Assembly (NCBI RefSeq): GCF_012720115.1
Contig: NZ_VNWN01000002.1
Span: 992,001-1,056,000, forward strand
Origin: Sneathiella chinensis
GTDB taxonomy: Bacteria > Pseudomonadota > Alphaproteobacteria > Sneathiellales > Sneathiellaceae
DNA length: 64,000 bases
Direction of reading: 5' to 3'
The translations under genes were made by a program, and so were the position numbers. The notes beneath the pieces were generated by a model. The model did not search any database. It was given only the letters and a program-made list of their open reading frames with translations, and was not told the origin of the DNA. Shown here one piece after another: positions 17,377-55,568 of this stretch; the stretch's first letter is position 1, and each line of letters opens with the position of its first letter.

Positions 17377-18223
17377 CCCCCAAAATCCAGCCTTCTTCTT
17401 TTTCAGAGGCCGCCCGCTCGTCCTCTTTCAGCCAGTCGGGCGCGGCGAATTGGGCGGAAAGGGTGCCGGCCTCCTGATGCTTTAGCAGCCAGTCGCGGGC
17501 AGCAGTGACCTGCCGGGCGTCTTTTACAGGATGGTCAATGGCATCGGATGGGGTCAGGCTGGGCCAAAGTTCGGCAAGGATAACCCCGTTCAGGTCTTTA
17601 TCCCAACCCGTATCAAACGGCCAGAACCGGACTGGCATGTCGGGGCCTTGTGACCGGGCCAGATGATAGAGGGCGTCAAGGCCGGTCAGGGTCTGGCTGC
17701 CAACAGAGCCTTGCCCCAGAAGCTGCCAGACATTCATGATCTTGTGTCCATCGGCGCGAAGGTGGGCCTCTACCTGTCGCCATTCCCTGAAATGATCGTG
17801 CCGGAAGGGGGGCTTGCGCCAGTCCAGGTCCGGCAGGTCCAAAGCTTTGGGACGGCCCCAGAAGGGGCCCGCCTGCGGGGAAAACTGTCCGTTCAGCAGG
17901 TTTGCCACCTGAAAGCGGTTGTTGCCGTTGCGGGCGTCTGTTTCCAGATATCGGGCAATTTTCTGACCGGCTTCATAGCCGCCGCCAAGGCCGCTGCCAG
18001 CGGGATAGCCCAAGGGGAAATCAAAGGCCAGTAACGCATTGCCCTCTGTCCCGTCCAGCAGGGCGTTGATCCGTTCCAGACAGGCGTGGCGGGTCCTGAA
18101 ATATTCAGGCTCTCCTTGTTCGTCGGAGGTTTTCCACGCCATCCAGCATTTGTCCGGCGATGGTTTTACCGGGCCGGGGGTGCTGGCGGCGGACCAGTCA
18201 ATTACAGCGATCAGATCAAAGAT
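17369..18223 (-). CDS. Conserved hypothetical protein with WSAAS N-terminus, apparent ATC start
   Basis: The conserved body (LLAFDFPLGYPAGSGLGGGY, FRHDHFREWRQVEAHL, IMNVWQLLGQGSVGSQTLTG, VRFWPFDTGWD) runs from an ATG at 18142, but the frame is open 27 more codons upstream and encodes FDLIAVIDWSAASTPGP, the N-terminus I remember for this alphaproteobacterial family (sometimes annotated as molybdopterin guanine dinucleotide synthesis protein, on weak grounds). Between the in-frame TAG upstream and ATG 18142 there is no ATG, GTG or TTG. An ATC at 18221-18223, with GGAG eight bases before, is placed exactly where the initiator should be; a CTG at 18212-18214 is the alternative. From ATC the protein is 284 residues. 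The biochemical role is unknown. Confidence 0.65.
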   Translation of the reverse strand: MFDLIAVIDWSAASTPGPVKPSPDKCWMAWKTSDEQGEPEYFRTRHACLERINALLDGTEGNALLAFDFPLGYPAGSGLGGGYEAGQKIARYLETDARNGNNRFQVANLLNGQFSPQAGPFWGRPKALDLPDLDWRKPPFRHDHFREWRQVEAHLRADGHKIMNVWQLLGQGSVGSQTLTGLDALYHLARSQGPDMPVRFWPFDTGWDKDLNGVILAELWPSLTPSDAIDHPVKDARQVTAARDWLLKHQEAGTLSAQFAAPDWLKEDERAASEKEEGWILGVR

Positions 18224-18381
18224 GCTCTCTCTCCGCTATGATTGGGACAGATTGTTTTTTCTGCTATATCATATTCAGGCTTTCAAGTCGGAAGCGGAAA
18301 GGCCGGGGCCACGAAAAAGACAAAATTTTCGACCACATCCAGCCATGGAATGCCGGTTTTTCCAGTTACAAGGAGAAGAGT

Positions 18382-33290: not shown

Positions 33291-35114
33291 TCAGGAGGCT
33301 TCCTTGGCGCGGGATGCCTTTTTCCGCTCATGCGGGTCAAGGTGGCGCTTGCGAAGCCGGATGTGGTTCGGTGTAACCTCAACCAGTTCATCATCATCAA
33401 TATAGGCAATGGCCTGTTCCAGGGTCATTTTCCGGGGCGTTGTCAAGCGAACCGCTTCATCAGTGCCAGCGGCCCGGATGTTCGTCAGCTGCTTGGCTTT
33501 CAGCGGGTTGACCTCAAGATCGTTCGGGCGGTTATGTTCGCCCAGAATCATGCCTTCATAGACATCAACGCCGCTTCCGATAAAGAACGCACCGCGGGCT
33601 TCAAGGTTCCAGATGGCAAAGGCAACCGATTTACCGGTGGAATTGGCGATCAGAACACCATTGCGACGGCCCGGAATGTCCCCCTTGTGCGGAACATAGG
33701 AATGGAACAGGCGGTTCATGATGCCGGTACCGCGGGTATCGGTCAGGAATTCGCCGTGATAGCCGATCAGGCCCCGTGTCGGGCAATGGAAGGTAATACG
33801 GGTCTTGCCGCCACCGGACGGACGCATATCTGTCATGGTGCCCTTGCGAAGGGCGATTTTTTCCACGACCACGCCGGAAAACTCTTCATCCACATCCACG
33901 ACAACCTCTTCCAGAGGCTCCAGCGTCTGGTCGGTGGCTTCGTCTTTGCGGAACAGAACGCGTGGGCGGCTGATGGAAAGCTCGAACCCTTCACGGCGCA
34001 TGGTTTCAATCAGAACGCCAAGCTGCAATTCGCCGCGGCCGGAGACGATGTAGCTGTCGGCTTCGGGGCTGTCTTCAACACGGATGGAGACGTTGCCTTC
34101 GATTTCCTTCATCAGGCGGTCGCGGATAACGCGGCTCTGGACCTTGTCACCATCCCGTCCGGCGAGCGGAGAGGAGTTGATGGCGAAGGTCATGGAGATG
34201 GTCGGCGGATCGATCGGCTGGGCATCCAGCGGCTGGGTTTCTTCGGGCGTACCCAGTGTATCCGCAACCGTGGTTTTGGCCAGACCCGCGACCGAGACAA
34301 TGTCACCGGCCCGGGCTTCATCAACGGTTTCCCGATCCAGTCCCCGGAAGGTCAGAATTTTGGAGGCGCGAGCATCCTCGATTTTTGAGCCGGTGCGGCT
34401 GAGTCCCTTGATCGGGTCGTTGGTTTTCAGGACACCGGCCTCAATACGGCCTGTCAGCAGGCGACCCAGATACGGGTTGCTTTCAATGGTGGTGACCAGC
34501 ATGCGGAACGGGGCTGTTTCATCCACGCTTGGCGCCGGAACGTGCTTGACGATCAGGTCAAACAGGGGGTTCAGGCTTTCTTTTGGATCGGACAGATCCT
34601 TGACCGCCCAGCCTTCCTTGGCAGACGCGTACAGGATCGGGAAGTCCAGCTGTTCCTCGTTGGCATCAAGGGCCACCAGCAGGTCAAAGCATTCGTCCAG
34701 AACTTCTTCCGGGCGGCCATCCGGGCGATCGGCCTTGTTGATCAGGACAATCGGTTTCAGGCCAAGGCCAAGGGCCTTCTGGGTCACGAATTTTGTCTGT
34801 GGCATGGGACCTTCGGCGGCGTCCACAAGGACCACTACACCGTCAACCATGCTCAGGATTCGTTCAACTTCGCCGCCAAAGTCGGCGTGGCCCGGGGTAT
34901 CGACCACATTCAGGCGGTATCCTTCCCACTCGACCGATGTACATTTCGCAAGAATGGTGATCCCGCGTTCGCGCTCCAGTTCGTTGGAGTCCATGGCCCT
35001 TTCAGCCACTTGTTGGTTCTCTCGGAACGTACCACTCTGTTTCAAGAGGCCATCCACAAGGGTTGTCTTCCCATGGTCAACATGGGCGATGATCGCTACG
35101 TTCCGAATTTCCAT
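33291..35114 (-). CDS. typA: Translational GTPase TypA/BipA
   Basis: A 607-residue ribosome-associated GTPase, the normal family length when started at ATG 35112-35114. The G1 motif is IAHVDHGKTTLVDGLLKQSG, followed by ERERGITILAKCTSVEW (G2), VVDTPGHADFGGEVERILSM (G3) and VLINKADRPDGRPEEVLDEC (G4). The C-terminal BipA-specific domain ends RKRHLDPHERKKASRAKEAS. A longer frame to 35984 has no coding support and overlaps the cupin gene on the other strand. BipA helps ribosome assembly and growth under stress and cold. It is preceded by a promoter at 35151-35178. Confidence 0.95.
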   Translation of the reverse strand: MEIRNVAIIAHVDHGKTTLVDGLLKQSGTFRENQQVAERAMDSNELERERGITILAKCTSVEWEGYRLNVVDTPGHADFGGEVERILSMVDGVVVLVDAAEGPMPQTKFVTQKALGLGLKPIVLINKADRPDGRPEEVLDECFDLLVALDANEEQLDFPILYASAKEGWAVKDLSDPKESLNPLFDLIVKHVPAPSVDETAPFRMLVTTIESNPYLGRLLTGRIEAGVLKTNDPIKGLSRTGSKIEDARASKILTFRGLDRETVDEARAGDIVSVAGLAKTTVADTLGTPEETQPLDAQPIDPPTISMTFAINSSPLAGRDGDKVQSRVIRDRLMKEIEGNVSIRVEDSPEADSYIVSGRGELQLGVLIETMRREGFELSISRPRVLFRKDEATDQTLEPLEEVVVDVDEEFSGVVVEKIALRKGTMTDMRPSGGGKTRITFHCPTRGLIGYHGEFLTDTRGTGIMNRLFHSYVPHKGDIPGRRNGVLIANSTGKSVAFAIWNLEARGAFFIGSGVDVYEGMILGEHNRPNDLEVNPLKAKQLTNIRAAGTDEAVRLTTPRKMTLEQAIAYIDDDELVEVTPNHIRLRKRHLDPHERKKASRAKEAS

Positions 35115-35150
35115 AGATTTCTTTACATTCACTGATAAAAAGGCGCGCGC

Positions 35151-35178
35151 AGTATAACGATCGTTCAGTATAAGGCAA
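35151..35178 (-). promoter_or_regulatory. Probable sigma-70 promoter of typA
   Basis: On the minus strand TTGCCT (35178-35173) and TATACT (35156-35151) are separated by 16 bases, about 37 bases before the typA start. The -10 lies in a pair of near-identical CAGTATAA repeats around CGATCG, which could be an operator. Confidence 0.5.
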
Positions 35179-35402
35179 GCATGAAGTAGGAGAGTCTTGT
35201 ACGATTTAGCAGTGATCAGGGTTGCGGTGAAAACAGGGGGCCGACAGGGGCAAAATGTTAAGGAAACAGCAAGAATTGTTTTTGTAATCAGTTGACAAGA
35301 CCGCCTTGGTGTTGAAATTAGGGTTCTTGTTAGAAACTGTTCCCGTTCGACCAAGGCGAGAATATGGTTTGTCTTTGTGAAGCAGGATAAAAGGGGGCGG
35401 CT

Positions 35403-35798
35403 ATCCCTAATAAATATCGAATAGGTGACGAGGATCGCCGGCCTTGGGGGCACTGGATTGTCACGGATATTGGTGATGATTTTGTCGTAAAGCGGATTAC
35501 TATCAATCCGGGTGCCCGATTGTCCTTGCAGTATCACCAGCACCGGGAAGAAATCTGGACAGTTGTACGTGGCGGCGGTGTTGCCGTCGTGGGTGATGAA
35601 ACTGTTTCTCTGGAAGTGGGGCAAACGGTGCGTGTTCCGGTTCTGAAATCCCACCGAATGACCAATACGGGGCAGGACCCTCTTGTCTTCATCGAAGTGC
35701 AAAAAGGGTTGGAGCTTGACGAAGACGACCTTGTACGTCTTGAAGATGACTATGGCCGCTCTGTTTCCGTATCCGCTTCTTCTGCCACTGCGGAATGA
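35403..35798 (+). CDS. Cupin protein similar to the C-terminal domain of ManC/mannose-6-phosphate isomerase type II, apparent ATC start
   Basis: A 131-residue single cupin. The conserved N-terminus IPNKYRIGDEDRRPWGHWIV and the core VKRITINPGARLSLQYHQHR (metal ligands H and H/E) and EEIWTVVRGGGVAVVGDE match stand-alone ManC-type cupins. The first ATG/GTG/TTG in the frame is the TTG at 35520, which cuts off the conserved RPWG part; the frame is closed by TAA at 35388-35390, and an ATC at 35403 with AAGGGGG five bases before sits at the right place. The stop overlaps the next ATG (ATGA). It probably isomerises or binds a sugar phosphate for the polysaccharide locus. Confidence 0.7.
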   Translation: MPNKYRIGDEDRRPWGHWIVTDIGDDFVVKRITINPGARLSLQYHQHREEIWTVVRGGGVAVVGDETVSLEVGQTVRVPVLKSHRMTNTGQDPLVFIEVQKGLELDEDDLVRLEDDYGRSVSVSASSATAE

Positions 35799-36982
35799 AT
35801 AAAAATCCCGGAAATAAATCTGTTCTGATATTTGTCGATTCCGACAGTCAGATTTTTGGGGCTCTGCCCCATGCCCATGCGTTCCGGGACAAGGGCTGGC
35901 AGGTGGTCTTTGGGTTGGGGGATGCAGGGAGCATTCCCGCCGCGGCGCTGGACCGGCTTGGCGGTGCCTTTGAAACCTTTCCATTGGAATATACGGAAGT
36001 CGCCGGACATGTCTTGGATGCGGGCTATAATGTTGTGGGGGTGTTCTCCAAGGCCAGCAAAATTCACCGGGTCCGTCAGCAGGTTGAGCAGAAATGCAAT
36101 GGCGAAAATGTCCGTCGGCCGGGCCTGTTTACCGCCTTTAACGGATTTACCTATGAACGGTTTGAAGAAGGGCTCGCCTGGCGGGTCGGGTATGACCTCA
36201 TTGCGCTGAACGGCCCAAGGGATGTGGCTTCGCTGCAGGATTTTCTGGCCTTTGGTGAGTGCAGTAAACAGCCTTACCGTATCTCCGGCCTGAAGCCATC
36301 CCGCCTGAGAGAGGCGGGGGAGGCGTCGCGCCCTGATAAAAAGGTTTTTGTTTTCGCAGAGCAGGTGATTGTTCCCCGTTCACGTGCGCAGCGCCTGTAT
36401 CTGGTTGCTGAATTGCGACGGCTGGCGCTTGATAACCCGGATTGGACCCTGAAGATCAAGTGCCGGGTCAAGAAAACAGAACGAACCTTTCATCGTGTCT
36501 CCTATCATTTTCAGGATTTGCTGGCTCGCCTCGGACCAACGCCCGCCAATCTGGAAATTACCTATCAGGGGATGCCCGAGCTTTTGAGAGAGGCAACCCT
36601 GTTCGGAACGATCTCCTCAACCGCTTTCTTTGACGCCCTGCACGAAGGGGTGCCGTCCATTGTTTTCAGTGATTTTGGTATTGCCAATGCCTTGGGGACG
36701 CATGCATTTGCGGGAAGCGGTGTGGCGGTCCGCCTGAAGGATCTGGGCAGCCTTTCCGAAATTGTGGGCCTTATGCCCAATGCGGGCTGGCTGGAATGGG
36801 TCGGGGCCGCCAATGTGGAGGCCGGACAGGTTGCCGGGTATTTTGACGGCAAGGCCTTCCACGGTCATCAATTCGAGCCGCAGTATCTGGATGCCCGTGC
36901 CGTTGAGGTGTGGGAGGAAACCAAGAAGCGCTTTGTGTTTGGCGCTGTTCTGTCCCGGATGATCGGGATGTTCAGAAAATAA
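35795..36982 (+). CDS. Putative glycosyltransferase (DUF6716-like), capsule locus
   Basis: A 395-residue protein, GT-B-like by eye. The N-terminal SVLIFVDSDSQIFGALPHAH, middle LKIKCRVKKTERTFHRVSYH and C-terminal LFGTISSTAFFDALHEGVPS and IVFSDFGIANALGTHAF fit the DUF6716 putative glycosyltransferases. These residues also align, loosely, with the protein at 42729-43898 (LRHLENENKVHTHKEQYSY, VASTAGVEALGSGIPT), so the two are probably paralogues. It is translated with the cupin gene through a four-base overlap. The sugar and acceptor are unknown. Confidence 0.6.
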   Translation: MNKNPGNKSVLIFVDSDSQIFGALPHAHAFRDKGWQVVFGLGDAGSIPAAALDRLGGAFETFPLEYTEVAGHVLDAGYNVVGVFSKASKIHRVRQQVEQKCNGENVRRPGLFTAFNGFTYERFEEGLAWRVGYDLIALNGPRDVASLQDFLAFGECSKQPYRISGLKPSRLREAGEASRPDKKVFVFAEQVIVPRSRAQRLYLVAELRRLALDNPDWTLKIKCRVKKTERTFHRVSYHFQDLLARLGPTPANLEITYQGMPELLREATLFGTISSTAFFDALHEGVPSIVFSDFGIANALGTHAFAGSGVAVRLKDLGSLSEIVGLMPNAGWLEWVGAANVEAGQVAGYFDGKAFHGHQFEPQYLDARAVEVWEETKKRFVFGAVLSRMIGMFRK

Positions 36983-41527: not shown

Positions 41528-42709
41528 ATGAATGTTGTCGCAATAATCCCTGCGAGGGGCGGATCGAAAGGAATCCCGGGCAAGAATAAAAAATTGCTCG
41601 GGGGCTTGCCGCTTATCAGCCATACCATCCGGGCGGCTCAGGGGGCGCTAAATGTGGGCCGGGTCTATGTCAGCAGTGATGACGACGAAATACTGGCCAT
41701 CGCCGCCCGTGAGGGCGCGGTTGCGGTAAGGCGTCCCGATGCGCTGGCAACCGATGAGGCCAGTTCTGAAACCGCCCTTCTGGATTGCCTTGAGCAGATA
41801 TCCGGGGCGGGGCCGCTGCCTGACTATATTGCGTTTCTTCAATGCACGTCCCCCTTCGTGACCTCGGCAGAAATCGAGGAAGTTGTTCAGAAGGGAACCG
41901 CAGAGGGGGTGGATAGCGCCTTTAGTGCGGTGCCGGATCACGCCTTTTTGTGGCAGGTTGGCTCAGATGGCTTGGCCGAAGGGGTCAATCACAACGCGGA
42001 TGAACCCAGAAAACGGCGGCAGGACCTGCCTGCCCAGTTTCGGGAAAATGGCGCCATTTATGTGATGAAAACCGGCCCCTTCCTGCGCGAGAGAGAGCGG
42101 TTCTGCGGCAACACTGTCGTTGTCCCTGTGAAGGGGAGTCCGCTGGAACTGGATACGCTGGAAGATTGGGACAATGCGGAAAAGCTGATGGCGATCCGTG
42201 CGTCCTCCCCGGACCGACAGGCACAGCCCTCTGGCCTTGTGCCGCAGATTATTCGAACCGTTGTCATGGATTTTGACGGAGTTCATACAGACAATCGGGT
42301 CTATGTTTCCGAAGCGGGCGTTGAAAGCGTTGTCTGTAGCCGGGATGACGGTTTTGGCGTGGAATTGCTGCGAAAAAGCGGCTTCCGGCTGCTGATCCTT
42401 TCAAAAGAGAGAAATCCTGTCGTCAGGCTTCGGGCTGAAAAGCTGAAGGTTGAAGTGATGCACGGTGTGGATGAGAAGGAGGCCATTCTTTCCGGGTGGC
42501 TGTCTGACAACAATCTGGACTGGAAGGATGTGGCCTATATCGGCAATGACCTGAACGATCTGGACTGTATTCGCCGTGCGGCCCTCGGTTTCTGCCCGGC
42601 CGATGCCCACCTGACCGTCCGCAACCATGCCGACCATGTCTTGAAGAATGCTGGCGGGTCCGGCGCCATTCGCGAAATGGCAGAGCTCCTGCTGGATGCC
42701 GCCCGCTAG
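41528..42709 (+). CDS. CMP-nonulosonate cytidylyltransferase fused to KdsC-like HAD phosphatase
   Basis: A 393-residue two-domain enzyme. Residues 1-225 are a NeuA-type cytidylyltransferase (IIPARGGSKGIPGKNKKLLG, SHTIRAAQ, FLQCTSPF, FRENGAIYVM, ELDTLEDW). Residues 240-393 are a KdsC/KDO-8-P-phosphatase-type HAD domain with nucleophile D248 and D250 (VVMDFDGVHTDNRV), S292 in LILSKERN and YIGNDLNDLDC. So one polypeptide could dephosphorylate a nonulosonate-9-phosphate and activate it with CTP. Both catalytic aspartates are present, unlike the degenerate HAD domain of vertebrate CMAS. It follows neuB in one operon. Confidence 0.88.
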   Translation: MNVVAIIPARGGSKGIPGKNKKLLGGLPLISHTIRAAQGALNVGRVYVSSDDDEILAIAAREGAVAVRRPDALATDEASSETALLDCLEQISGAGPLPDYIAFLQCTSPFVTSAEIEEVVQKGTAEGVDSAFSAVPDHAFLWQVGSDGLAEGVNHNADEPRKRRQDLPAQFRENGAIYVMKTGPFLRERERFCGNTVVVPVKGSPLELDTLEDWDNAEKLMAIRASSPDRQAQPSGLVPQIIRTVVMDFDGVHTDNRVYVSEAGVESVVCSRDDGFGVELLRKSGFRLLILSKERNPVVRLRAEKLKVEVMHGVDEKEAILSGWLSDNNLDWKDVAYIGNDLNDLDCIRRAALGFCPADAHLTVRNHADHVLKNAGGSGAIREMAELLLDAAR

Positions 42710-42728
42710 GCAAGTGAAATATACTGAA

Positions 42729-43898
42729 ATGTCTGAAGTAGAAAAAAGCACCAAAAACAGGGCTCTGCTGTTGTTCAAGGACGACAGCTCGCTGATGTCT
42801 GCTGTGAAGTTGGAGCGCATCTTAGGCGGAGAGAATTTCACCTTTGAGTATTGCTACGCACATAATTCAAGACATGGCGGCAGGGAGCTTTCAGAACGTC
42901 AAATAAACCTTAGCCTCGAAGGACGAAAAGTCGACTACACCCTTGAAATTCGGGAGGCTTCAGATGAAAGGTTCCTGGAAAAGTTTGATACTGTTTATGC
43001 CTGTAAGTATCCTGGTATATTCAAAATGAAGTGGGTGCTGAGGTTGTGGAATTTTAAAGCTCGGCGGCCTTGTTTTGTTTCTTCATTTCCGGGGATAGAG
43101 TTTACTCCAAAATCGGGGATTAGGGCTCGTCAATATTCCGATGTTGTTTGTTTGAACACGGTAGATGATGTCTCGGTTTTTAGGAAGTTCGCATCAAAAA
43201 GGTGGCAAAAGAATACGGAAGCCATCCAATTTAGTCCGTTCTTTTTTAGTAAAAATAAAGTTCATGCTGAGGCGCCTGTTCGCAATGTTGTGTTTTTTTC
43301 TCAGAGCGTTATGCCTGAGTCTCGAGAAGGTCGTGTAGACGTTTTAGGGTTTTTGGTGGAGGCAGCTAGGTTGAACCCTGGCGTGCTCATAACAATCAAG
43401 TTGCGACATCTTGAAAATGAAAACAAGGTGCATACCCACAAGGAGCAATATTCCTATCCGAGTTTGTTGCGAGAGGAGTTTCCCTTGGACGCTCCTGAAA
43501 ATCTGGTTTTTAGTGCTGATAGTATGGAAAAGATCCTGGAAGAATGTGATTTTGCTGTCACTGTAGCATCTACTGCAGGGGTTGAGGCGCTGGGAAGTGG
43601 GATTCCGACCTTGTTTCTCGGTGATTTTATGGGAATTCGCGATGAATGGTACCACAAGGCATTGATTGAATTTGTTGGTGAAAGCGGATTGTTGGGCGGA
43701 AAAGAAGATTTGTTGAGTTTGAGGCCTTCGCGTCCGGATGAAGCGTGGTACATGAATACGATGTCGACAGAGGATCATGTGAAAATTTTGACGGAGAAAA
43801 TCCTGGGCTTCGATCACGGGAAAGCTGCTAGAGGTGAAGGGTATATCGGAAAGTTGCTCCCTCAATCCTTGAAGCGTTTTTTATATTCTTTTTTATAA
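42729..43898 (+). CDS. Putative glycosyltransferase (DUF6716-like paralogue)
   Basis: A 389-residue protein, start ATG 42729 likely (MSEVEKSTKNRALLLFKDDS); an ATG at 42696 is an alternative. The C-terminal half has GVLITIKLRHLENENKVHTH, DFAVTVASTAGVEALGSGIP and TLFLGDFMGIRDEWYHKALI, the nucleotide-sugar-binding arrangement of GT-B-like enzymes, and resembles the protein at 35795-36982. The N-terminus (VKLERILGGENFTFEYCYAH) is more divergent. From this gene on, codon use becomes clearly AT-richer than in the neuA/neuB genes. Its position right after CMP-sugar synthesis suggests a transferase for that sugar, which is inference. Confidence 0.6.
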   Translation: MSEVEKSTKNRALLLFKDDSSLMSAVKLERILGGENFTFEYCYAHNSRHGGRELSERQINLSLEGRKVDYTLEIREASDERFLEKFDTVYACKYPGIFKMKWVLRLWNFKARRPCFVSSFPGIEFTPKSGIRARQYSDVVCLNTVDDVSVFRKFASKRWQKNTEAIQFSPFFFSKNKVHAEAPVRNVVFFSQSVMPESREGRVDVLGFLVEAARLNPGVLITIKLRHLENENKVHTHKEQYSYPSLLREEFPLDAPENLVFSADSMEKILEECDFAVTVASTAGVEALGSGIPTLFLGDFMGIRDEWYHKALIEFVGESGLLGGKEDLLSLRPSRPDEAWYMNTMSTEDHVKILTEKILGFDHGKAARGEGYIGKLLPQSLKRFLYSFL

Positions 43899-44026
43899 TT
43901 TTTTTTGCGATCTGTAGGGACAATGAAACTTTATGCAATGAAACATCATGGTAGAGCGGAAATGTCGCTTTTTTACTGTTTTCAGTTTGTGGAACGCTTT
44001 GCCTTGAAAGGTGATTGGAAAAAGTC

Positions 44027-46102
44027 ATGATTTTTTCGCAAGGCATCAGGAGGGCGATTAGAAAAGGTGATTTTAAATTTGCTTGTGAACTGCTGAAGCA
44101 GACAGAAGCGGTTTTACAGAATACTCCTGGAGCAATTTTTATCCTGGGGCGGCTATATTTTCGCGTTGGAGAATATAGCAAAGCACTGGATTGTTTTCGG
44201 AAGGTGGAAAGCAGATTCTCTAGACAGTTCCGATACTGGAAATTTCGCGCAAAGGCTAGCTATTCTTCCTGTGACTATGGGGATGCCAGCCTCAGTTTCA
44301 AAAAAATGTCTGACGCTGGAAGTGTAGATGAGTATCAGCAGGCTTGTTGGGCTATCAGTGCTTACCGTTGTGGTGCATTTCAGCAAGCTTTTGAATTGTT
44401 CGACGAAATTTCGGATTATTGCGATCAGTTTTTTTATTTGAGGTCGTTTCGAGGGTTCGCTGACACCTTGGCAAATGGCGCGAAATTTGAGCCGGAATTG
44501 AGAATGAAATGGCCAGAATTGGTCGTTGTGCAAGGAATTGTACAATGCCGCCAGAAGGCTCTTCTGCAAGAAGAGGAGTTGCTAACATCATTGCTCTTGA
44601 ATAGCCCTCCAGGGGTTTGGGGGCGGTCCTTCTTTTGTGGGGAGGGGAGTGTCAGAGGAGGAGCCCCGGAATCCAAGGCTGTGCTTGGTGAGTTGGTGGC
44701 GCATTTGGAAGGAAGCCTTGTTTTGAATGAGGACTGGAGCAAGAGATCCGAGGTTTTCGGACTGGTCCTTGCCCGCATCAATTTTTCCATCAGGAAGCTG
44801 GGTCAAGCTGCTACTCTTTATTCTCAATTGTTCCAAAGTCCCGAAATGAATTTTTATGACTATCAATTGGCAGGGGCTTGTTGTTTCCGTGCAGGAGACC
44901 TGGAAAGTTCAAAAGTTATCTTTTTACGGCAAATTGAGTGGAAACCCGATGACCGTCACGCCTATTTCAATTTGGCTTTGATTTACGATGAATTGGGGGA
45001 GCTCGAAAAAGCTCTGGAATATGCTAAAATCCAACTCAATATTGTACCGAGGCATGCTGGCGCCTTGATGTGGCTGGCGGAGGTTTATATTGACCTAGAC
45101 CTTGAAATATTGGCGGAGCAGCAGCTTGTAAAGCTAGTCCATATCAAGAATAAAAACACAAATCGTTTTGGCCTGATTAAAAAGAAGTTCGAGGGCGTAT
45201 TCGGCCGTCCGATTAAGCCAAAATCAACGCCTGCCGATTTCAGCTATATTGACTGGTCCAGAATTTCGGTTCCTGACGAATTTGTCCTGACGGAAGATTT
45301 AATCGATGTAAAGCCTCCCCGTAAGAGAGGAGAAAATACCTTAAAAATCCTGTTTCGTGTCGTTGGAGCCCTCATGCTGCGTGAAATGACGACGCGTTTC
45401 GGCAGAAATGGGTTGGGGTATCTTTGGGTCGTGATTCAGCAGATCATATTTATTAGTGTTTTTGCCCTGCTGTTCGAATATCGTGGTCGCAGTTTGCCAT
45501 ATGGCGTCTCGATGCTGGCCTTTCTTATTACTGGCATCAACGCGTTTTTTATTTTCAGAAATACCGTATCTCAGGTAAGGAATGCGTTAAAAAGCAACAT
45601 TAGCCTTCTCTATTATCGGCAGGTTTCCCCATTTTCTATTTACATGTCGAGGGCCGTTTTGGAAACCTTGACAGGTATTTTCATTTTTGGTGCTTTGGTC
45701 GGGATCTCGGTTGTTAGTGGGGAAGAACTAAGGATGACCAGCGTTCTTCAAGTGCTTGGTATTCTTGTTATGCTGGGGCTTTTCGGAACCTGTTACGGAC
45801 TTCTGATGGCGACCATTTCAACGTTTGTGCCGTCGATCAAGCATTTTGAGCAAGCGATTAACAGAATTCTTTTTTTCACCTCAGGTCTCTTCTACTATGC
45901 AAACGAGTTGCCACAGGGGTTGCGCGAGATATTGCTGTGGAATCCCTTGCTGCATCTGATTGAACTACTTCGTGATGGTTTCTTCGCAACCTATACCGCA
46001 GAATATGCCAGCCTTGAGTATGTGATGTGGTGGACAGCCGGGTTTTTATTTTTTGCCCTTATTCTGGAGATCGTTGGACGGAAAAGGATGCTGGAAGCTT
46101 GA
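44027..46102 (+). CDS. TPR domain fused to ABC-2 capsule export permease (KpsM-like)
   Basis: A 691-residue fusion. Residues 1 to about 395 are TPR-like helical repeats (GRLYFRVGEYSKALDCFRKV, NLALIYDELGELEKALEYAK, LMWLAEVYIDLDLEILAEQQ), with no signal peptide, so cytoplasmic. Residues about 440-691 are an ABC-2 permease of the KpsM type: LREMTTRFGRNGLGYLWVVI (the elbow helix motif of these permeases), six hydrophobic helices, and LLWNPLLHLIELLRDGFF. A KpsM normally has about 260 residues, so the N-terminal part is extra. ATG 44027 is preceded by GGAAAAA. The stop overlaps the TTG start of kpsT (TTGA). Confidence 0.85.
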   Translation: MIFSQGIRRAIRKGDFKFACELLKQTEAVLQNTPGAIFILGRLYFRVGEYSKALDCFRKVESRFSRQFRYWKFRAKASYSSCDYGDASLSFKKMSDAGSVDEYQQACWAISAYRCGAFQQAFELFDEISDYCDQFFYLRSFRGFADTLANGAKFEPELRMKWPELVVVQGIVQCRQKALLQEEELLTSLLLNSPPGVWGRSFFCGEGSVRGGAPESKAVLGELVAHLEGSLVLNEDWSKRSEVFGLVLARINFSIRKLGQAATLYSQLFQSPEMNFYDYQLAGACCFRAGDLESSKVIFLRQIEWKPDDRHAYFNLALIYDELGELEKALEYAKIQLNIVPRHAGALMWLAEVYIDLDLEILAEQQLVKLVHIKNKNTNRFGLIKKKFEGVFGRPIKPKSTPADFSYIDWSRISVPDEFVLTEDLIDVKPPRKRGENTLKILFRVVGALMLREMTTRFGRNGLGYLWVVIQQIIFISVFALLFEYRGRSLPYGVSMLAFLITGINAFFIFRNTVSQVRNALKSNISLLYYRQVSPFSIYMSRAVLETLTGIFIFGALVGISVVSGEELRMTSVLQVLGILVMLGLFGTCYGLLMATISTFVPSIKHFEQAINRILFFTSGLFYYANELPQGLREILLWNPLLHLIELLRDGFFATYTAEYASLEYVMWWTAGFLFFALILEIVGRKRMLEA

Positions 46103-46755
46103 TAATATTGAATAACATATCAAAGCGGTACCTCACAAAGAATGGTGAAAGAGTTGTTCTTAACCCTACGTCTTTGAAAATCCCTAGCAATGAACATATT
46201 GCCATACTTGGGCGTAATGGGGCTGGGAAGTCGACGTTGTTGCGGATGATTGCGGGGGTGGAGCAGCCAGACCAAGGTAAAATTGTGCGCTTGGCGCATT
46301 TGTCGTGGCCGATCGGGTTCGGTGGGGCTTTGCACAATGCGCTGACAGGGCGCCAAAATGTTGAATTTACTGCCAGAATAAACTCTGTTGATATTGAAGA
46401 GGCGACGCAGTACGTCGAGGATTTTTCCGAGCTTGGTAAATATCTGGATGAGCCGGTTTCAACCTACAGTGCCGGAATGAGGTCGCGTTTGGCTTTCGGG
46501 CTAAGCTTAAGTATTGATTTTGACTGTTATCTGATTGACGAAGCAATTTCTACTGGTGATAAATGGTTCAGGGAAAAAGCTGCCCTTGCATTTGATGAGC
46601 GAAGACAGACATCAGGTGTCTTGTTCGTCTCTCATAATCCAGGAACGGTAAAGCGGTTCTGTGATAAAGGGTTAGTCCTTGTTGAAAGCCGGTTGGTTCC
46701 GTTTTCGGATCTGGACGAAGCAATTGATTTCTACAATTATGGCCTTCTGAAATAG
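46099..46755 (+). CDS. kpsT: Capsule export ABC transporter ATPase (KpsT-like)
   Basis: A 218-residue ATPase of the KpsT/Wzt type. Starting at TTG 46099, which overlaps the permease stop, gives MIILNNISKRYLTKNGERVV. Walker A is ILGRNGAGKST (residues 36-46), the signature is STYSAGMRSRLAFGLSL and Walker B is CYLIDEAISTGDKWF, followed by the switch His in FVSHNPGTVKRFCDKG. It lacks a C-terminal carbohydrate-binding extension, as expected for KpsT. With the permease it exports a finished polysaccharide across the inner membrane. The frame's ORF start at 46027 lies inside the permease and is rejected. Confidence 0.92.
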   Translation: MIILNNISKRYLTKNGERVVLNPTSLKIPSNEHIAILGRNGAGKSTLLRMIAGVEQPDQGKIVRLAHLSWPIGFGGALHNALTGRQNVEFTARINSVDIEEATQYVEDFSELGKYLDEPVSTYSAGMRSRLAFGLSLSIDFDCYLIDEAISTGDKWFREKAALAFDERRQTSGVLFVSHNPGTVKRFCDKGLVLVESRLVPFSDLDEAIDFYNYGLLK

Positions 46756-46790
46756 GCTTGATAAAGTCGCTGAATTGAAAGCAGTTTATA

Positions 46791-48032
46791 GTGAGCAACG
46801 AAGAACGAGTACCGGTTGTCAGAACTGGAAAGCAAGTGGAGCCTCAGCGCGCTGGTCAGAGGGGGCTGGCGCAAATTGTGGAGGCTGCTTCTGCACCGGT
46901 AGTGTATGAAAAAGCCAATAAGTCGCGACTGTCTTTATATTTGCAGTTCCTGTTTATATTGATTATTCCCACAATTGTTGCTGTTGTCTATTTCGGTTTT
47001 ATTGCTTCTGATCGGTATGTATCGAACAACCGTATTGTCATTCAGTCCGCAGACATGGGGGCGGTGAGCGGTGTTGCCAGTTTGATTACGGGTAGTTCGT
47101 TGGGAGGTGGTGGAGGTATGGGGTCGCAGGGCGATATCCTAGCCAGCTACATACACTCAAACAGCATATTGCAAGAACTGGATAACTTGCTGGATCTGAG
47201 AAAAATTTATTCTCCAGAAAGCGTGGATCAGTTTTCCCGGCTGGGCGATGAGGCTTCCCAAGAAGATTTTCTTGAATATTACCGCAAAATGACGCTTGTG
47301 GAATGGGATCCGGGAACGAGCCTGCTATATGTGGAGGTTGAGGCCTTCACACCCAATGATGCAAAGTTAATACTCGATACGATCATTATGCTAAGCGAGG
47401 AAAAGCTTAACTCTCTCAAAGAAAGAAAGCAAAGTGACCGGGTTGCTTTCGCTCGCCAAGAATTGAAGTTGGCAGAGGAAAGACTTTTTCAGGCTCGGCT
47501 GGCTGTAGCGGACTTTCGTCGAAAGTATGGCGAGATTGACCCCCTGAAATCTGCTGAAGCCAAGGGCAGCTTGCTGGCGACTTTGAACGAAGAATTGGCC
47601 GCGGCCAGGACCGAGCTGACGTCGTTGAGATTTGCGCTAAAGCCCGAAAGTCCGCAGGTGCAGTCCGCTGTAGCGCGTATCAAGGCCTTGGAGGAGCAGG
47701 TAAGTCAGGAAAAGGCCAAGGCGACCCGTCAGTTGAAAGGGGATAATTCTACCGCCCTAAGCGATTTGGTTACCGAATTCGAGGGTTTAATCATTGAAGA
47801 AGAGTTTGCACGAGCAACCTATACGTCAGCGCTGGCCTTTCTTGAAAACACCCGTGCTTCAGCTCAACAAGACAGTAGTTATGTCGTCGATTTCATTGAA
47901 GCCAACCTGCCGCAGGAAGCGACACAGCCCAAGCGGTTGCAAATTATCGCATCTGTTTTCGTAATCTGCTTGTTAGTTCTGGGTATTGGTAATTTGATCG
48001 TTGCTGCAATCAAGGAGCAGGCGCGACTATAG
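46791..48032 (+). CDS. kpsE: Capsule export inner-membrane protein (KpsE/polysaccharide co-polymerase-like)
   Basis: A 413-residue KpsE-type protein of the membrane periplasmic auxiliary group. A transmembrane helix lies at about 48-70 (SLYLQFLFILIIPTIVAVVY), then the conserved FGFIASDRYVSNNRIVIQSA and a glycine run (SSLGGGGGMGSQGDILASYI), a coiled coil at about 200-330 (AEERLFQARLAVADFRRKYG, ALKPESPQVQSAVARIKALE) and a second helix at about 385-405 (LQIIASVFVICLLVLGIGNL). KpsE bridges the ABC exporter with the outer-membrane protein. The GTG at 46791 starts the frame; its 3' end is next to the GSCFA gene. Confidence 0.9.
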   Translation: MSNEERVPVVRTGKQVEPQRAGQRGLAQIVEAASAPVVYEKANKSRLSLYLQFLFILIIPTIVAVVYFGFIASDRYVSNNRIVIQSADMGAVSGVASLITGSSLGGGGGMGSQGDILASYIHSNSILQELDNLLDLRKIYSPESVDQFSRLGDEASQEDFLEYYRKMTLVEWDPGTSLLYVEVEAFTPNDAKLILDTIIMLSEEKLNSLKERKQSDRVAFARQELKLAEERLFQARLAVADFRRKYGEIDPLKSAEAKGSLLATLNEELAAARTELTSLRFALKPESPQVQSAVARIKALEEQVSQEKAKATRQLKGDNSTALSDLVTEFEGLIIEEEFARATYTSALAFLENTRASAQQDSSYVVDFIEANLPQEATQPKRLQIIASVFVICLLVLGIGNLIVAAIKEQARL

Positions 48033-48087
48033 TGTTGTTGAAATTTATGTGCGGGCCGGCGAGCGCATACGGAGTGAAGGTGAAGAT

Positions 48088-49893
48088 ATGAAGGTTGCAT
48101 TTTCGGGATCTTGTTTGAGTGCAGAGATTGTAAAGGCGATGACTGCAATAAGCCCTAAGATAGAAGTGGCGGGGTTTATTAATCACATGAGAACCGACGT
48201 TTTGAGTCAAGCGTTGAGTGATGCTGAAGTACTTCCCTTTAGAGAGACCGCGAAAGATTTTATAGCAAATTTCTCTAAAACGCATGACGCTGAACAGAGG
48301 AATGGTCGACGCATTCTAAGGCAGTGTCGCGAAAGTTTTTTGAACTTTGTTTCTTTTTACAAAGAATGTGATCTATTCATAATCGATACCAATTATGACT
48401 TGTCTGCGAAGGCAGTCCTTTTTCGTGATGAGGGGCAGGAGTACTGTCTGTCAAATGTCGCGGTTGATGCGAATACGTCTGATGTCCGGCAAAAGGGTGT
48501 TTTAAAACCAGAAGAAGTTGTGGTCGCTTATGAAGAGGTCGTACGCAAACTCAGGGCGATAAACCCCGATTGTAGAATTGTACTTGTGCAATATCCGGTG
48601 AGCGGTTTTGAAAAGGTAGCCAGCACAGCGAAGGTAAGAATTTCAAGGGCATATGAGTTGTCCCAAAAACTCTCAGTCGTTGAAGCAGAGGTGCTCCCCC
48701 TTTGGGATATTGCTGACTATGAGCTTTCTTCCAAAGGACCTCTTTATTTCGGCGAGGAGGTGTACCGTCGTTATGCAAAAGTGATTTTAGAGGGGGGGCA
48801 GGCGAATGATACCGCTGCGCAGGCAACGAGCGCGAAACCCCTGTCGCAAAGCAGTCCAAGCGGGAAAAAGCACCCTTATGTGGATTTGTCAAAAAAGCGA
48901 TTGTGGAGAACAGGGGTCGCTACTCAATCTCCCACTTATTTGCCGGATATTTATAAAAAGAAATTTGAAATTTCAAAGACTGATAAGGTTGCCACTTTCG
49001 GTAGCTGCTTTGCGCAGCATATTGGGCGCAGGATGCAGGCGTCAGGTTTTAATTTCCTGGATAAAGAGCCAGCTCCTTCAGGCTTTTCTCCCGCGGATGC
49101 TGTTGCGCATGGATATGGAATTTATTCCGGGCGGTATGGAAACGTTTATACTCCCAAACAGTTGGTGCAGTTGTTTGACAGAGCCTTTGGCGGGCAGAAT
49201 CTCGATGAAGTGTGGAAAAATGAAGGTCGTTTCTATGATGCTTTTCGGCCAAACCTGCAACCCGGCGGCTATAGTTCTCTGGATGCTCTGTTGGAAGAAC
49301 GAGAACAACACCTGAATGCAGTTAGGTCCCTTTTCGAAGAATTGGACGTCATGGTATTCACATTGGGGCTAACCGAGGCTTGGGTGAATAAACAGACCGG
49401 AGCAGTGTACCCTATTTGCCCAGGGGTGACCGCAGGCGAGTTTGATGAGGGTCTATATGAATTTAAAAATTTCACTTTCCGTGAAATTTATGATGATTTG
49501 CTGGATGTCTTTTCCAAAATCAAGGGAGTGAATAAATCCGTTAAAATCTTGCTGACAGTATCACCCGTCCCTTTGACTGCCACGGGCGAAGATAGGCACG
49601 TGTTGGTCTCTACAACTTACTCTAAGTCCGTACTTAGAGCAGTTGCAGGAGAGATTTATGACAGGCATGATTTTGTTGATTATTTCCCTTCCTATGAAAT
49701 TATCACACAACCGGGGGCGCGGGGTGTGTTTTATCAGGAGAACTTGAGAAACGTACATGATGCAGGCGTCGATTTTGTCATGAGGCACTTCTTTGATGAG
49801 CATTCCGATGGCTATGTCGAGGATGATCTCGCGAACAATAACGATGAGTTGTGCGATGAAAAGTTTCTCGATATTGAAAAGCTGGTGCAGTGA
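48088..49893 (+). CDS. Two-domain SGNH/GSCFA protein
   Basis: A 601-residue protein, start ATG 48088 after a GAAGGTGAAG site. The C-terminal half (about 290-575) is a GSCFA domain: VATFGSCFAQHIGRRMQASG, SGRYGNVYTPKQLVQLFDRA, VMVFTLGLTEAWVNKQTGA and LTVSPVPLTATGEDRHVL. GSCFA proteins belong to the SGNH/PC-esterase fold and are thought to act on carbohydrates. The first 280 residues start similarly (VAFSGSCLSAEIVKAM) and carry DLFIIDTNYD and IVLVQYPVSGF, so a second divergent SGNH-like unit is likely. It may add or remove acyl groups on the capsule; no experiment is implied. It follows kpsE. Confidence 0.75.
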   Translation: MKVAFSGSCLSAEIVKAMTAISPKIEVAGFINHMRTDVLSQALSDAEVLPFRETAKDFIANFSKTHDAEQRNGRRILRQCRESFLNFVSFYKECDLFIIDTNYDLSAKAVLFRDEGQEYCLSNVAVDANTSDVRQKGVLKPEEVVVAYEEVVRKLRAINPDCRIVLVQYPVSGFEKVASTAKVRISRAYELSQKLSVVEAEVLPLWDIADYELSSKGPLYFGEEVYRRYAKVILEGGQANDTAAQATSAKPLSQSSPSGKKHPYVDLSKKRLWRTGVATQSPTYLPDIYKKKFEISKTDKVATFGSCFAQHIGRRMQASGFNFLDKEPAPSGFSPADAVAHGYGIYSGRYGNVYTPKQLVQLFDRAFGGQNLDEVWKNEGRFYDAFRPNLQPGGYSSLDALLEEREQHLNAVRSLFEELDVMVFTLGLTEAWVNKQTGAVYPICPGVTAGEFDEGLYEFKNFTFREIYDDLLDVFSKIKGVNKSVKILLTVSPVPLTATGEDRHVLVSTTYSKSVLRAVAGEIYDRHDFVDYFPSYEIITQPGARGVFYQENLRNVHDAGVDFVMRHFFDEHSDGYVEDDLANNNDELCDEKFLDIEKLVQ

Positions 49894-49905
49894 TGTGAGT
49901 GCCCT

Positions 49906-50220
49906 TTGAAGCCTGCTTCAGTTTTTGAAAATACATTTGGCACCAAGGCTTGGGGGTGCTTTTTTCTGGAGATGGACCACGAAAAGGTGCTTTGGGTTGC
50001 AATTCGTCCCGTTTTTGGCAAAGGTATGGCGTTTTTCAGTTCTGACTATGTGAACTGGCACAAGGTATACCAGTTTCCTGAACTGCCTTTGAAGAAGTGG
50101 CGCCGAAATCATATATTAAGAGATTTTTCCAGATGCCAGAGAGGCTATGATCAGGAGCCTTCTTTCAATCATTTGATTTTGTCCGGCAATCGGGGGCTTC
50201 TGATAGAGAAGGCCGAGTAG
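49906..50220 (+). CDS. Possible small hypothetical protein
   Basis: A 104-residue frame from TTG 49906, with no convincing ribosome site. It lies 12 bases after the GSCFA stop and in the same reading frame. Its composition (FENTFGTKAWGCFFLEMDH, KKWRRNHILRDFSRCQRGYD) is not obviously membrane or secreted. I do not recognise it. It may be a real short gene, or the remains of a longer one. Confidence 0.35.
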   Translation: MKPASVFENTFGTKAWGCFFLEMDHEKVLWVAIRPVFGKGMAFFSSDYVNWHKVYQFPELPLKKWRRNHILRDFSRCQRGYDQEPSFNHLILSGNRGLLIEKAE

Positions 50221-50309
50221 TTTTGCCTCTGGTATTAACAATTTAAATTCAGGTGTGCCGCCTGTTTCCTGTCCCTGTAAATATCGTGAGAGAAGTGAGG
50301 TCGTGTTAT

Positions 50310-53288
50310 ATGTCTGGTAATGATAGTGAGCAGGATGTTGAAGTGTGTGCTGTATCTGACCAGATGCTGAAGAATGTTAGGCAGTGGCAGGTGCCGTTAA
50401 GGGAATTCGTCTCGCCTGCCAATCCTAGGACACAGTTGAAAATTGCCACTATCGTCAGTGAAGAGATGTATGACAGCTTGAAGCATGTCGCCAAGCTCGT
50501 GCCGTTGATCGAAGGTGAGTGGCAGGACACCCTCAGCTATATGGAAGGGATCGATTTCCTGCTCATCGAGGCATGCCGCGAGTCGTTCATGGGAAGCTGG
50601 TATTTAGCGCAATCTTTTAACCGACCTCTTAAGGACGAATTGCGAAACGTTATCCAGCTGGCAAAGGATAGGAGCATACCGACCGTCTTCTGGAATACGA
50701 AAGATCTGCGTCACCATCCTCAATATTGCGACCTTGCGGCTGAATTCGATTATATCTTTTGTAGTGATGCCGGCGAAATTACGGCTCTTGCCGAGCAAGG
50801 AATTAAAGCGGCTTTGCTGAAGCCAGCGATTGAGCCAATGCTGTGCAATCCGTTTCGGATTTTCACGAACGAAGAAGACGAAGAAATTGAGGTATTGTAT
50901 GATGGTTGGAGTGATGTGCTGGCGAAGCACGAAATCAGGGAGTGTATCTCTGGTTTAAAGAAGTTCGGGGTGAATATTGTCGATAGTGTCAATGAGATAT
51001 TTGAGAATAAGGTCGCCGAGACACCAGACTTGAAGGATTTGATCCTTGGCTCCGTGACGAAAGAAAACCTTCGAAAAGCACTAAAAATTTCCCGTATATA
51101 TTTGACACACTCTGCTTCGCAGAAAACCCCGACGGACCTTTTGCGGGGGCAGTTGGAGGCGCTAGCCTCCCGGTGTGTGGTCGTGCATGTCGGGCAGGAA
51201 CCTGTTGACGAGATGGTCAGGGAATACTGTATCCATGTGGTGGACCAGAAGGATGTTGGTGATACGCTGGAGGCATTGCTGGGAAGTCGGGTCGAGTTGT
51301 CCTTGAAGGCGCAACGCGGTTGGAGGGACGTGCATACTCTTCACACTTATCTGGCTCGTATAGAAGGTATTTGTGAGACAATTGGTGTAATTTGCGATGA
51401 AAACCGGGAGGAGTATCCCCTCGTTACTCTTATCGCTCCATCGAACCGTCCTGAGTTTTTGCCCAATATCATGCATAATTTTGATTTGCAGGCCTACCCC
51501 AATAAAGAGCTCATTATTATTTTCAATGGAGGCTTCTCCGAGTTTTCTGAGCTTGAAAGGAAGGTTCAATCTTATGGAAATCAGAATGTACGGATTGTTT
51601 ATGAACCCGAGGAATCCCCTGCGGGTAGCTGCTTAAATGATGGCGCCTTCCTGTCAAATGGAACCTACTGTTTTAGGTTCGATGATGACGATATTTATGG
51701 TGTGAACTTTATCAGCGATACTCTTTTGCATCTCAATTCGATTGATGCTGATATCGTCGGTAAGCCTCCTTGTCACCTCTACTTTGAGGAAACAGGTGAG
51801 CTTTATGCCAGACGATTGGTAAAAAGTGAATTATGTGTTTTGCCTCCCGCCTCTATCAATCAAGATGTTGTTCGCCTAGGTGGGAATAGTATTGGGGGCA
51901 AGACCGATTTCCTGCGAAAGTGCCGGTATCCGGACAATGTGTTCGCGAGTGCGGATAGTGCCTTTCTTTTTAACGCAGCAATGCATAATCCTGTAATTCT
52001 CTCCACTGATTTATGTAGCTTGCTTGCGACTCGCCGAGAGGATGTTGGAAGTCACACATGGCGCGTTCCCAAAGCGGCTTTGTTGAAAAACTCGGTCTGT
52101 TTGGATGCAACTGACGCGGGCAAGTTTATCGCAGATCTTGGCAAGTCTACCATCTTGCACGGAAGTACCAAAAAAACTGTTCTATTTCTGGGGCCAGGAA
52201 GCTTTCGAGATGGGGTTTGGCGCAATCGGGCGAAGTATATTTTTCCAGATATTTTTTCCTCCCTTAAGGGGCATGCGAATGTGCATATTTTGACAGGGAA
52301 GGTTCCAGATTTCGCTAAAGAAGATATTCGGGCTCTTGAGCATGAATTTAGCGTTCGTTTCGCGGAAATGCCGGATCGGGAGAAGAGTAGCTTTTTGGAG
52401 TTTTGGTCTCTTCATGCAGCGGAGTATGGAAAAAAAATTGGGGCAGATATTATCACCAATTTTTTTGGCAGCGTTCAATTCCCCGCAGCCGCTTCCGCTG
52501 TTGCGGAATCTATCGGTGCGCAATCCATCGTACGTGTGGCGGGAGATGAAATCAGTTCTAGAATAGCAATGGGAGTGTATCCAGAGGGTAGCGTACGCCA
52601 TAAAAAAGATCTGGCGATGGAGGCGGAGGCCTTCCAGAAAAGTTCCAGGATCATTGTCATGTCAGCTCAGGAAAAAGAGCGTGTGGACGGTATTGTTTCT
52701 GAAAAAGACAAGGTCAAGGTTATTGTCAGAGGCGTTGATACTGATAGCTTTACTCCAGAAGGGAAGGCGGATCGAAAGCGAACTACTTTCCTTTTCGTTG
52801 GCAGAAAATCTTTGGAGAAGGGATTTGACCTTCTAGAGAAAGCAGCTGGTATCGTGTATCAGAGAAATAAAGAAATCAGGTTTCTTTTTGCGGGTGATTT
52901 TGAACCGGAAGTTGTTGAAAACAAAGAATATATTGGGTTTGTCAAGACAGAAGATTTGCCTGACTTGTACAGAAAAGCCGATGCTTTGGTGATGTGCTCC
53001 CGGTCTGAAGGAATGCCGCAGGTGTTGCTTGAAGCCATGTCATCTGCTTTGCCATCCATTATGAGCAAGCATTTGTTCTCTTCATGGCTTTCTGAGGAAG
53101 AGGTTGGGGTGTTTTGTGATTTGAACCCGGTGAATTTGGCTGAGCGAATTATCTGGATGCATGATAATCCGGAGATAGCATGTGCTATGGGCCGAAATGC
53201 GCGTGAATATGCTCTAGCTCATTTTGATAGAGAAAAGGGGCGGCAGGCCTACCGGGAGTTCACGTTGTGCCAGAAGTCTGGGCAGTGA
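50310..53288 (+). CDS. Three-domain glycosyltransferase (CgeB-like + GT2 + GT4)
   Basis: A 992-residue protein with three transferase-like parts. Residues about 40-365 look like a CgeB/GT-B type domain (LAKDRSIPTVFWNTKDLRHH, FDYIFCSDAGEITALAEQG, FGVNIVDSVNEIF). Residues about 370-610 are a GT2 domain (PLVTLIAPSNRPEFLPNIM, DLQAYPNKELIIIFNGGFSE, with FRFDDDDIYGVNF as the DxD motif). Residues about 650-985 are a GT4 domain (TTFLFVGRKSLEKGFDLLEK, VMCSRSEGMPQVLLEAMSSA, the E..7..E-type site). It would transfer up to three sugars. It shares its first two parts with the protein at 58147-59958. Start ATG 50310. Confidence 0.85.
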   Translation: MSGNDSEQDVEVCAVSDQMLKNVRQWQVPLREFVSPANPRTQLKIATIVSEEMYDSLKHVAKLVPLIEGEWQDTLSYMEGIDFLLIEACRESFMGSWYLAQSFNRPLKDELRNVIQLAKDRSIPTVFWNTKDLRHHPQYCDLAAEFDYIFCSDAGEITALAEQGIKAALLKPAIEPMLCNPFRIFTNEEDEEIEVLYDGWSDVLAKHEIRECISGLKKFGVNIVDSVNEIFENKVAETPDLKDLILGSVTKENLRKALKISRIYLTHSASQKTPTDLLRGQLEALASRCVVVHVGQEPVDEMVREYCIHVVDQKDVGDTLEALLGSRVELSLKAQRGWRDVHTLHTYLARIEGICETIGVICDENREEYPLVTLIAPSNRPEFLPNIMHNFDLQAYPNKELIIIFNGGFSEFSELERKVQSYGNQNVRIVYEPEESPAGSCLNDGAFLSNGTYCFRFDDDDIYGVNFISDTLLHLNSIDADIVGKPPCHLYFEETGELYARRLVKSELCVLPPASINQDVVRLGGNSIGGKTDFLRKCRYPDNVFASADSAFLFNAAMHNPVILSTDLCSLLATRREDVGSHTWRVPKAALLKNSVCLDATDAGKFIADLGKSTILHGSTKKTVLFLGPGSFRDGVWRNRAKYIFPDIFSSLKGHANVHILTGKVPDFAKEDIRALEHEFSVRFAEMPDREKSSFLEFWSLHAAEYGKKIGADIITNFFGSVQFPAAASAVAESIGAQSIVRVAGDEISSRIAMGVYPEGSVRHKKDLAMEAEAFQKSSRIIVMSAQEKERVDGIVSEKDKVKVIVRGVDTDSFTPEGKADRKRTTFLFVGRKSLEKGFDLLEKAAGIVYQRNKEIRFLFAGDFEPEVVENKEYIGFVKTEDLPDLYRKADALVMCSRSEGMPQVLLEAMSSALPSIMSKHLFSSWLSEEEVGVFCDLNPVNLAERIIWMHDNPEIACAMGRNAREYALAHFDREKGRQAYREFTLCQKSGQ

Positions 53289-53308
53289 GCTAGTCGGGCA
53301 TATTAAAT

Positions 53309-54400: not shown

Positions 54401-54441
54401 GTGCGATTTAGATTTATTCATGGCTGGGCACTTTTAATTTA

Positions 54442-55542: not shown

Positions 55543-55568
55543 TCCAAGAATTCAAGGAATATTAGTCC

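Follow-up and report, generated by a model that had tools for sequence, protein, structure and literature searches.

The window analysed here, a stretch of 64,000 nucleotides from the alphaproteobacterium Sneathiella chinensis, carries on its forward strand a short gene for a single-domain cupin of the PMI type, in whose reading frame the earliest ATG, GTG or TTG after the stop codon TAA 35388 is TTG 35520. This gene, its neighbours and the other features discussed below are listed in Table 1. The product reaches 102.5 bits against PF01050 (MannoseP_isomer; cut-off 23.6), covering positions 11-116 of the 116 of the profile, and remains below the ManC equivalog TIGR01479 (102.5 bits versus a cut-off of 372.95), of which only positions 357-467 of 467 are matched. 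It is a stand-alone PMI-type cupin and not a whole ManC: it belongs to the same domain family (PF01050) as the C-terminal domain of ManC, from which it differs in lacking the GMP part. The cupin gene and the DUF6716 gene that follows it are probably one translational unit, because their stop and start codons overlap in an ATGA at 35795. A promoter-like scan of positions 35100-35500 gave one match, on the minus strand, and none on the strand of the cupin. Further along, polysaccharide-type genes are followed on their right by a stretch (positions 42001-58000) with a G+C content of 0.45-0.49, against 0.50-0.61 elsewhere in the window; this stretch is perhaps an acquired cluster.

Table 1. Coordinates of the genes and sequence elements considered (window positions, except for the cyclase gene, which is given in contig coordinates)
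Feature	Position	Strand	Remarks
Cupin frame	35391-35798	+	opens after TAA 35388-35390; stop TGA 35796-35798
Proposed cupin start codon, ATC	35403-35405	+	aligned codon is ATG in 20 of 37 outside homologues, ATT in the second copy and in G016
Shine-Dalgarno-like AAGGGGG	35391-35397	+	read in the sequence; pairing inferred
Single-domain PMI-type cupin gene, 131 codons plus stop	35403-35798	+	PF01050
DUF6716 putative glycosyltransferase gene	35795-36982	+	PF20471; ATG overlaps the cupin stop
In-frame eight-codon mini-ORF, ATG to TAA	35364-35390	+	read in the sequence
Other ATC gene, 284 codons plus stop	17369-18223	-	resembles C-terminal part of NF011066, below cut-off
Proposed start codon of that gene, ATC	18221-18223	-	codon compared in 18 relatives: ATH, ATG, TTG or other
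Shine-Dalgarno-like GGAGAG	18229-18234	-	7 bases between GGAG and ATC 18223
dCache-HAMP-cyclase gene (L192, L270)	G000:C12:614498-616330	-	PF00211

The position of the ATC, the conservation that begins with it, the placement of the Shine-Dalgarno-like sequence and the lack of any usable ATG, GTG or TTG can all be observed in the cupin gene itself, and comparison with its relatives suggests translation from an AUH codon (AUU, AUC or AUA; ATH in DNA). Between AAGGGGG and ATC 35403 there is a spacer of five bases, CGGCT, and the motif presumably corresponds to AAGGAGG with one G-U pair to the 16S rRNA. TTG 35520 encodes a residue within the conserved GARLSLQYH cupin core, and a start at this codon would cost 39 residues, including the DEDRRPWG segment.

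A second cupin copy, 52% identical, lies elsewhere in the same genome (G000:C13:4773), and one further genome of the genus, G016, holds a copy. At an E-value of 1e-20, cupin matches occur in five of the 25 genomes of the order: S. chinensis, G016 and three genomes that contain the fused ManC kind only, in frames of 476-507 codons. The stand-alone form is thus represented by three copies in two of the 25 genomes, a count in which absence from other genomes of the genus is not certain because several of them are incomplete (G016 stands at 56%). The start codon was aligned in 40 chosen homologues, three from the genus and 37 from outside; repeats (L037, L112-L114) and the fused L140 were left out, L137 was kept though also fused-looking, and 10 of the 80 loci of one listing were used. 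Thirteen codons ahead of PWG, the gene of the window has ATC, the second copy has ATT and G016 has ATT. The same codon is ATG in 20 of the 37 homologues from outside the genus; among the remaining 17, the nearest ATG stands at another distance in 16, and L139 has a TTG at -14. L138 and L040 have ATT or ATC at -13, but an ATG closer to PWG. These data bear out the view of the first-pass annotation that the DEDRRPWG part upstream of TTG 35520 belongs to the protein, conservation running from the ATC onwards. Its reading of a frame that opens after TAA 35388, with AAGGGGG five bases before the ATC, is likewise confirmed in the sequence, to which has to be added that an ATG further up, at 35364, lies in the same frame and is separated from the ATC by TAA 35388.

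From the second codon up to TTG 35520, 20 of 38 residues are identical between the two S. chinensis copies, as are 42 of 81 in the rest of the protein, and the nucleotide differences within those 38 codons number 14, 10 and 23 at codon positions 1, 2 and 3, respectively. Upstream of the start, only 15 of 39 bases match the second copy and 12 match G016. The residue identity and the excess of third-position changes from the ATC on, together with the poor match upstream, therefore indicate that protein-coding constraint begins at the ATC. GAGGAGG stands 8 bases before the ATT of the second copy; the G016 copy has a poor Shine-Dalgarno sequence and an in-frame GTG four codons upstream of its ATT. 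Phylogenetically, the cupin of the window pairs with the ATG-starting L130 with weak support (87/65), and the second copy pairs with that of G016 (100/95), so that ATG may have been lost once, with a later return, or twice. Since the only stand-alone orthologue in the order outside the S. chinensis genome is that of G016, the start of the cupin rests on three divergent copies, and much of the weight for it comes from the wider pattern in the genus. The mini-ORF that begins at ATG 35364 terminates 12 bases before ATC 35403. It is a possible, if speculative, leader, and ribosomes that terminate there might re-initiate at the poor start codon that follows; no such mini-ORF is found upstream of the second copy or of the G016 copy.

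The first-pass annotation had mentioned two ATC candidates within 64 kb and left one of them unplaced; this is most likely the gene that starts at window position 18223. It scores below the cut-off of NF011066, which is PRK14495, a fusion of MobB with a domain of unknown function, and matches no Pfam family at 0.001 in a profile search. The gene is present in 19 of the 24 genomes of the genus, where the aligned start codon is ATC in four, ATT in four, ATA in one, ATG in five, TTG in two and another codon in three; in this last group, G004 has an ATT and G011 an ATG one codon upstream, and G005 has an ATG further up. Exchange among ATH, ATG and TTG at one codon is to be expected where translation starts rather than at an isoleucine. 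GGAG is found at 7 bases in three of the nine genomes with ATH (S. chinensis, G018 and G007), and the other six have purine runs that are weaker or more distant. The Shine-Dalgarno sequence is well placed in the cupin gene of the window, and its quality is uneven among the genomes with ATH at 18223. A search of 240 genomes of the class gave 25 matches, 22 of them outside the genus, and in 21 of the 22 the 25 codons preceding the match include an ATG or GTG, a count that does not settle the starts singly.

Another case is a gene for a dCache-HAMP-cyclase protein (PF00211 over the cut-off, dCache_1 and HAMP below theirs), present in 23 of the 24 genomes of the genus. At codon -21, counted from the F of the FG motif in the membrane helix, 12 genomes have ATT, four ATA and three ATC (ATH in 19 of 23). 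Three more have an ATH one or two codons away (ATT at -23 in S. chinensis, ATC at -22 in G023 and ATT at -22 in G014), which raises the total to 22 of 23; no other offset between -30 and -14 has ATH in more than five of the 23. The spacing in these 22 genes is nearly constant, with GGAG and 7 bases in 19, GGAG and 8 bases in two, and GAGG and 7 bases in one. ATG occurs at this start codon in none of the 23 genomes. G005, without ATH at the site, has a GTG at -19 that it seems to use, and in G001 an ATG, one base after AGGAG, precedes the ATH by two codons. Up to nine codons before the F, seven of the 23 frames lack any ATG, GTG or TTG; the other 16 have some such codon elsewhere before the helix, in several cases a TTG at -40. 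The residues near the ATH vary among genomes, and what is kept is the Shine-Dalgarno sequence and the ATH itself. Homologous cyclases were matched in 65 of 289 genomes of the class, four of them from the genus.

As for infC, the gene for IF3, its start codon is ATA in all 17 genomes of the genus that gave a match (18 were searched). IF3 itself also differs: all 15 aligned genomes of the genus (for example L171) have R72, A73 and F75, together with a one-residue gap in the preceding loop, and the 11 outgroup sequences have K72, an aromatic residue (10) or leucine (1) at position 73, and tyrosine (10) or phenylalanine (1, in G029) at position 75. In this alignment the E. coli numbering was counted manually, two of 28 loci gave no sequence, and the partial sequence of G008 was excluded. 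According to PMC5037330, Tyr75 of IF3 contacts h23 by stacking, and fidelity is reduced in Tyr75 mutants. The residues of the genus would fit relaxed discrimination, but the case comes from a single clade, and Phe, which can replace Tyr75 in stacking, may serve equally well; a change around Tyr75 is a possible cause of AUH starts in the genus. With regard to the initiator tRNA, a pattern search of the S. chinensis genome found a single place (G000:C4:5404-5431, L269), with the CAU anticodon and with an A29-U41 pair in the anticodon stem instead of the first of three G-C pairs. The pattern was matched in 19 of the 24 genomes of the genus, with the A-U pair at 29-41 in all among the matches listed. 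A pair adjacent to 29-41 has been linked to start-codon discrimination (PMC11497404). In this comparison, which covered genomes of the genus, A29-U41 is present whether or not a given gene has ATH, and the pair is therefore not taken as a cause.

Further ATH starts were searched for in two ways, both of which miss genes with a canonical start soon after the ATH. A scan across 853 kb of the contig that contains the window, with 781 predicted genes, looked for ATH with a Shine-Dalgarno sequence ahead of the first canonical start and yielded 29 rows, belonging to 27 frames, among them infC, the cyclase gene and the gene at 18223. The cupin is absent from these rows, probably because GGGGG is outside the motif list; nine of the other 24 frames were inspected by eye and none was convincing. 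In a test based on orthologues, which in the S. chinensis genome covered 453 kb and the greater part of contig 13 (369 genes, 359 of them tested), two filters gave 11 and 19 raw candidates, and infC, the cyclase gene and the gene at 18223 were recognised among them. Such raw counts are not evidence in themselves, because the same test also yielded many candidates in G009 (46 and 61) and in G005 (24 and 27); in G005, infC was the sole recognised ATH start among the matches listed, whose rows were not checked singly. Many genes appear as mid-gene fragments in several stretches of G009 (L177-L179, L198-L200, L229-L248), which are probably frameshift errors of assembly. In all, four putative AUH-start genes, including the cupin gene, were recognised in the 853 kb, and the second cupin copy on contig 13 is to be added.

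The suggestion of the first-pass annotation that this organism may tolerate ATC initiation thus gains support from comparative sequence, and would extend to ATT and ATA and to the genus as a whole. The genome does contain other cases (the second cupin copy, the gene at 18223, the cyclase gene and infC). As to the features that it had proposed to test, the single initiator tRNA found by pattern has the usual anticodon and gives no support to a special one, and IF3 has altered residues around Tyr75 in all 15 aligned genomes of the genus.

Several explanations of the cupin locus can be weighed against these data. A protein that begins at TTG 35520, with the DEDRRPWG part left over as a remnant that is not translated, agrees with what standard tools would accept as the first start, yet such a start cuts into the conserved cupin core, no Shine-Dalgarno sequence is seen before it, and the 38 codons ahead of it are conserved like the rest, with the third-position excess; this explanation is hardly credible. 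Nearly as implausible is a longer N-terminus, which would arise if TAA 35388 were read through from ATG 35364 or if a frameshift took place on the AAAAGGGGG run. That ATG has the right frame and slippage on the run is conceivable, but neither the second copy nor that of G016 has an equivalent of ATG 35364 or a slip run, the upstream DNA is unconserved, and the ATG found at the ATC position in 20 of the 37 outside homologues contradicts an upstream start. A decaying cupin gene whose start codon is gone, or an ATC that is a sequencing error, would leave the same picture if a single gene with a broken start were considered, all the more so as a stand-alone orthologue is found in the order only in G016. 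Both S. chinensis copies, however, are intact frames with Shine-Dalgarno-like sites and an ATH at the same codon, and across the genus the pattern is repeated in two unrelated families of genes, in one of them in 22 of 23 genomes, which makes decay or error improbable.

A different question is whether AUH codons, being the true starts, matter at all. A poorly discriminating IF3 might simply tolerate a drift from ATG to ATH that is neutral and regulates nothing; the clade-specific changes of IF3 at positions 72, 73 and 75 and the exchange of ATG and ATH in the gene at 18223 agree with this. The cyclase site, with ATG in none of 23 genomes, speaks against drift, and this absence suggests that the weak start of the cyclase gene has a purpose. 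Moreover, the tolerance is not general, as only a handful of cases occur in 853 kb. Neutral drift is accordingly considered unlikely, though with more weight than any of the explanations above. The reading preferred here, to which a probability of about 80% is assigned on comparative grounds, is a joint one, in which ATC 35403 would be the start of the cupin and the genus would keep a few weak AUH starts repressed by IF3. In the proposed mechanism, AAGGGGG would position the ribosome at ATC 35403, where the ordinary CAU initiator tRNA would start with the third base mispaired, the ATC presumably standing where the ancestral gene had an ATG. The AUH-start set of the genus would comprise the cupin copies, the gene at 18223, the dCache-HAMP-cyclase gene and infC; its codons would initiate weakly and be repressed by IF3, its proteins would be made scarce and in step with the supply of IF3, and the downstream DUF6716 gene would follow the output of the cupin. 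By analogy with known systems, control of these starts by IF3 is probable; low output of the genes and its purpose are inferred, and AUH starts may keep these proteins scarce on purpose. A more elaborate version, a genus-wide AUU/AUC/AUA regulon tuned by the IF3 changed at positions 72, 73 and 75 and switched by single bases between species, is put forward tentatively, the odds being somewhat against it.

Few bacterial genes with starts other than ATG, GTG or TTG have been characterised, according to a study of Streptomyces, which also describes infC as autoregulated and starting with ATT in E. coli and with ATC in Streptomyces, and which reports that IF3 represses sigR at its conserved start codon, GTC or more rarely GTT (PMC5472188). 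The genes discussed here resemble infC in having an AUH codon behind a strong Shine-Dalgarno sequence (ATA for infC itself in this genus); unlike them, infC is one gene, widespread in bacteria and autoregulated, and IF3 control of the other genes is proposed by analogy. They share with sigR a non-canonical start conserved in the genus, as seen in the cyclase gene, a strong Shine-Dalgarno sequence and oversight by annotation, but have AUH in place of GUY, and sigR is a single gene on which the effect of IF3 is experimental. In Staphylococcus aureus, one report gives AUA as the start of infC, and AUU for cvfC1 and AUA for ccpN as conserved starts behind extended Shine-Dalgarno sites, the tested non-canonical starts reaching about 10% of the AUG output in poor medium (PMC13009471). 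As in that account of cvfC1 and ccpN, a single genus would have more than one AUH-start gene in addition to infC, with conservation, as in the cyclase gene, and with strong Shine-Dalgarno sequences, and weak initiation would be the point. The differences are that the genes and the phylum are others, that the evidence there comes from ribosome profiling and reporters and here from sequence comparison, and that here one gene has ATG in some species and ATH in others and IF3, too, has changed. The S. aureus set is a close precedent for AUH-start genes (PMC13009471).

The literature search, outside which most subscription journals lay, turned up no account of these genes or of an AUH set from Alphaproteobacteria. 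The AUU start of E. coli pcnB reportedly limits its expression, although that is a single gene of another group, and a 2020 preprint by Gvozdjak and Samanta is said to deal with genes that prefer non-AUG starts in bacteria and may bear on the AUH set. The existence of such a set would show that gene finders truncate or drop genes of this kind. Unrelated AUH genes in one genus would permit a direct test of the idea of an IF3 regulon, and the IF3 of the genus would offer a natural variant for the study of start-codon choice. If the more elaborate, genus-wide version is true, the identity of the start codon would be a genus-wide, IF3-dependent means of controlling expression.
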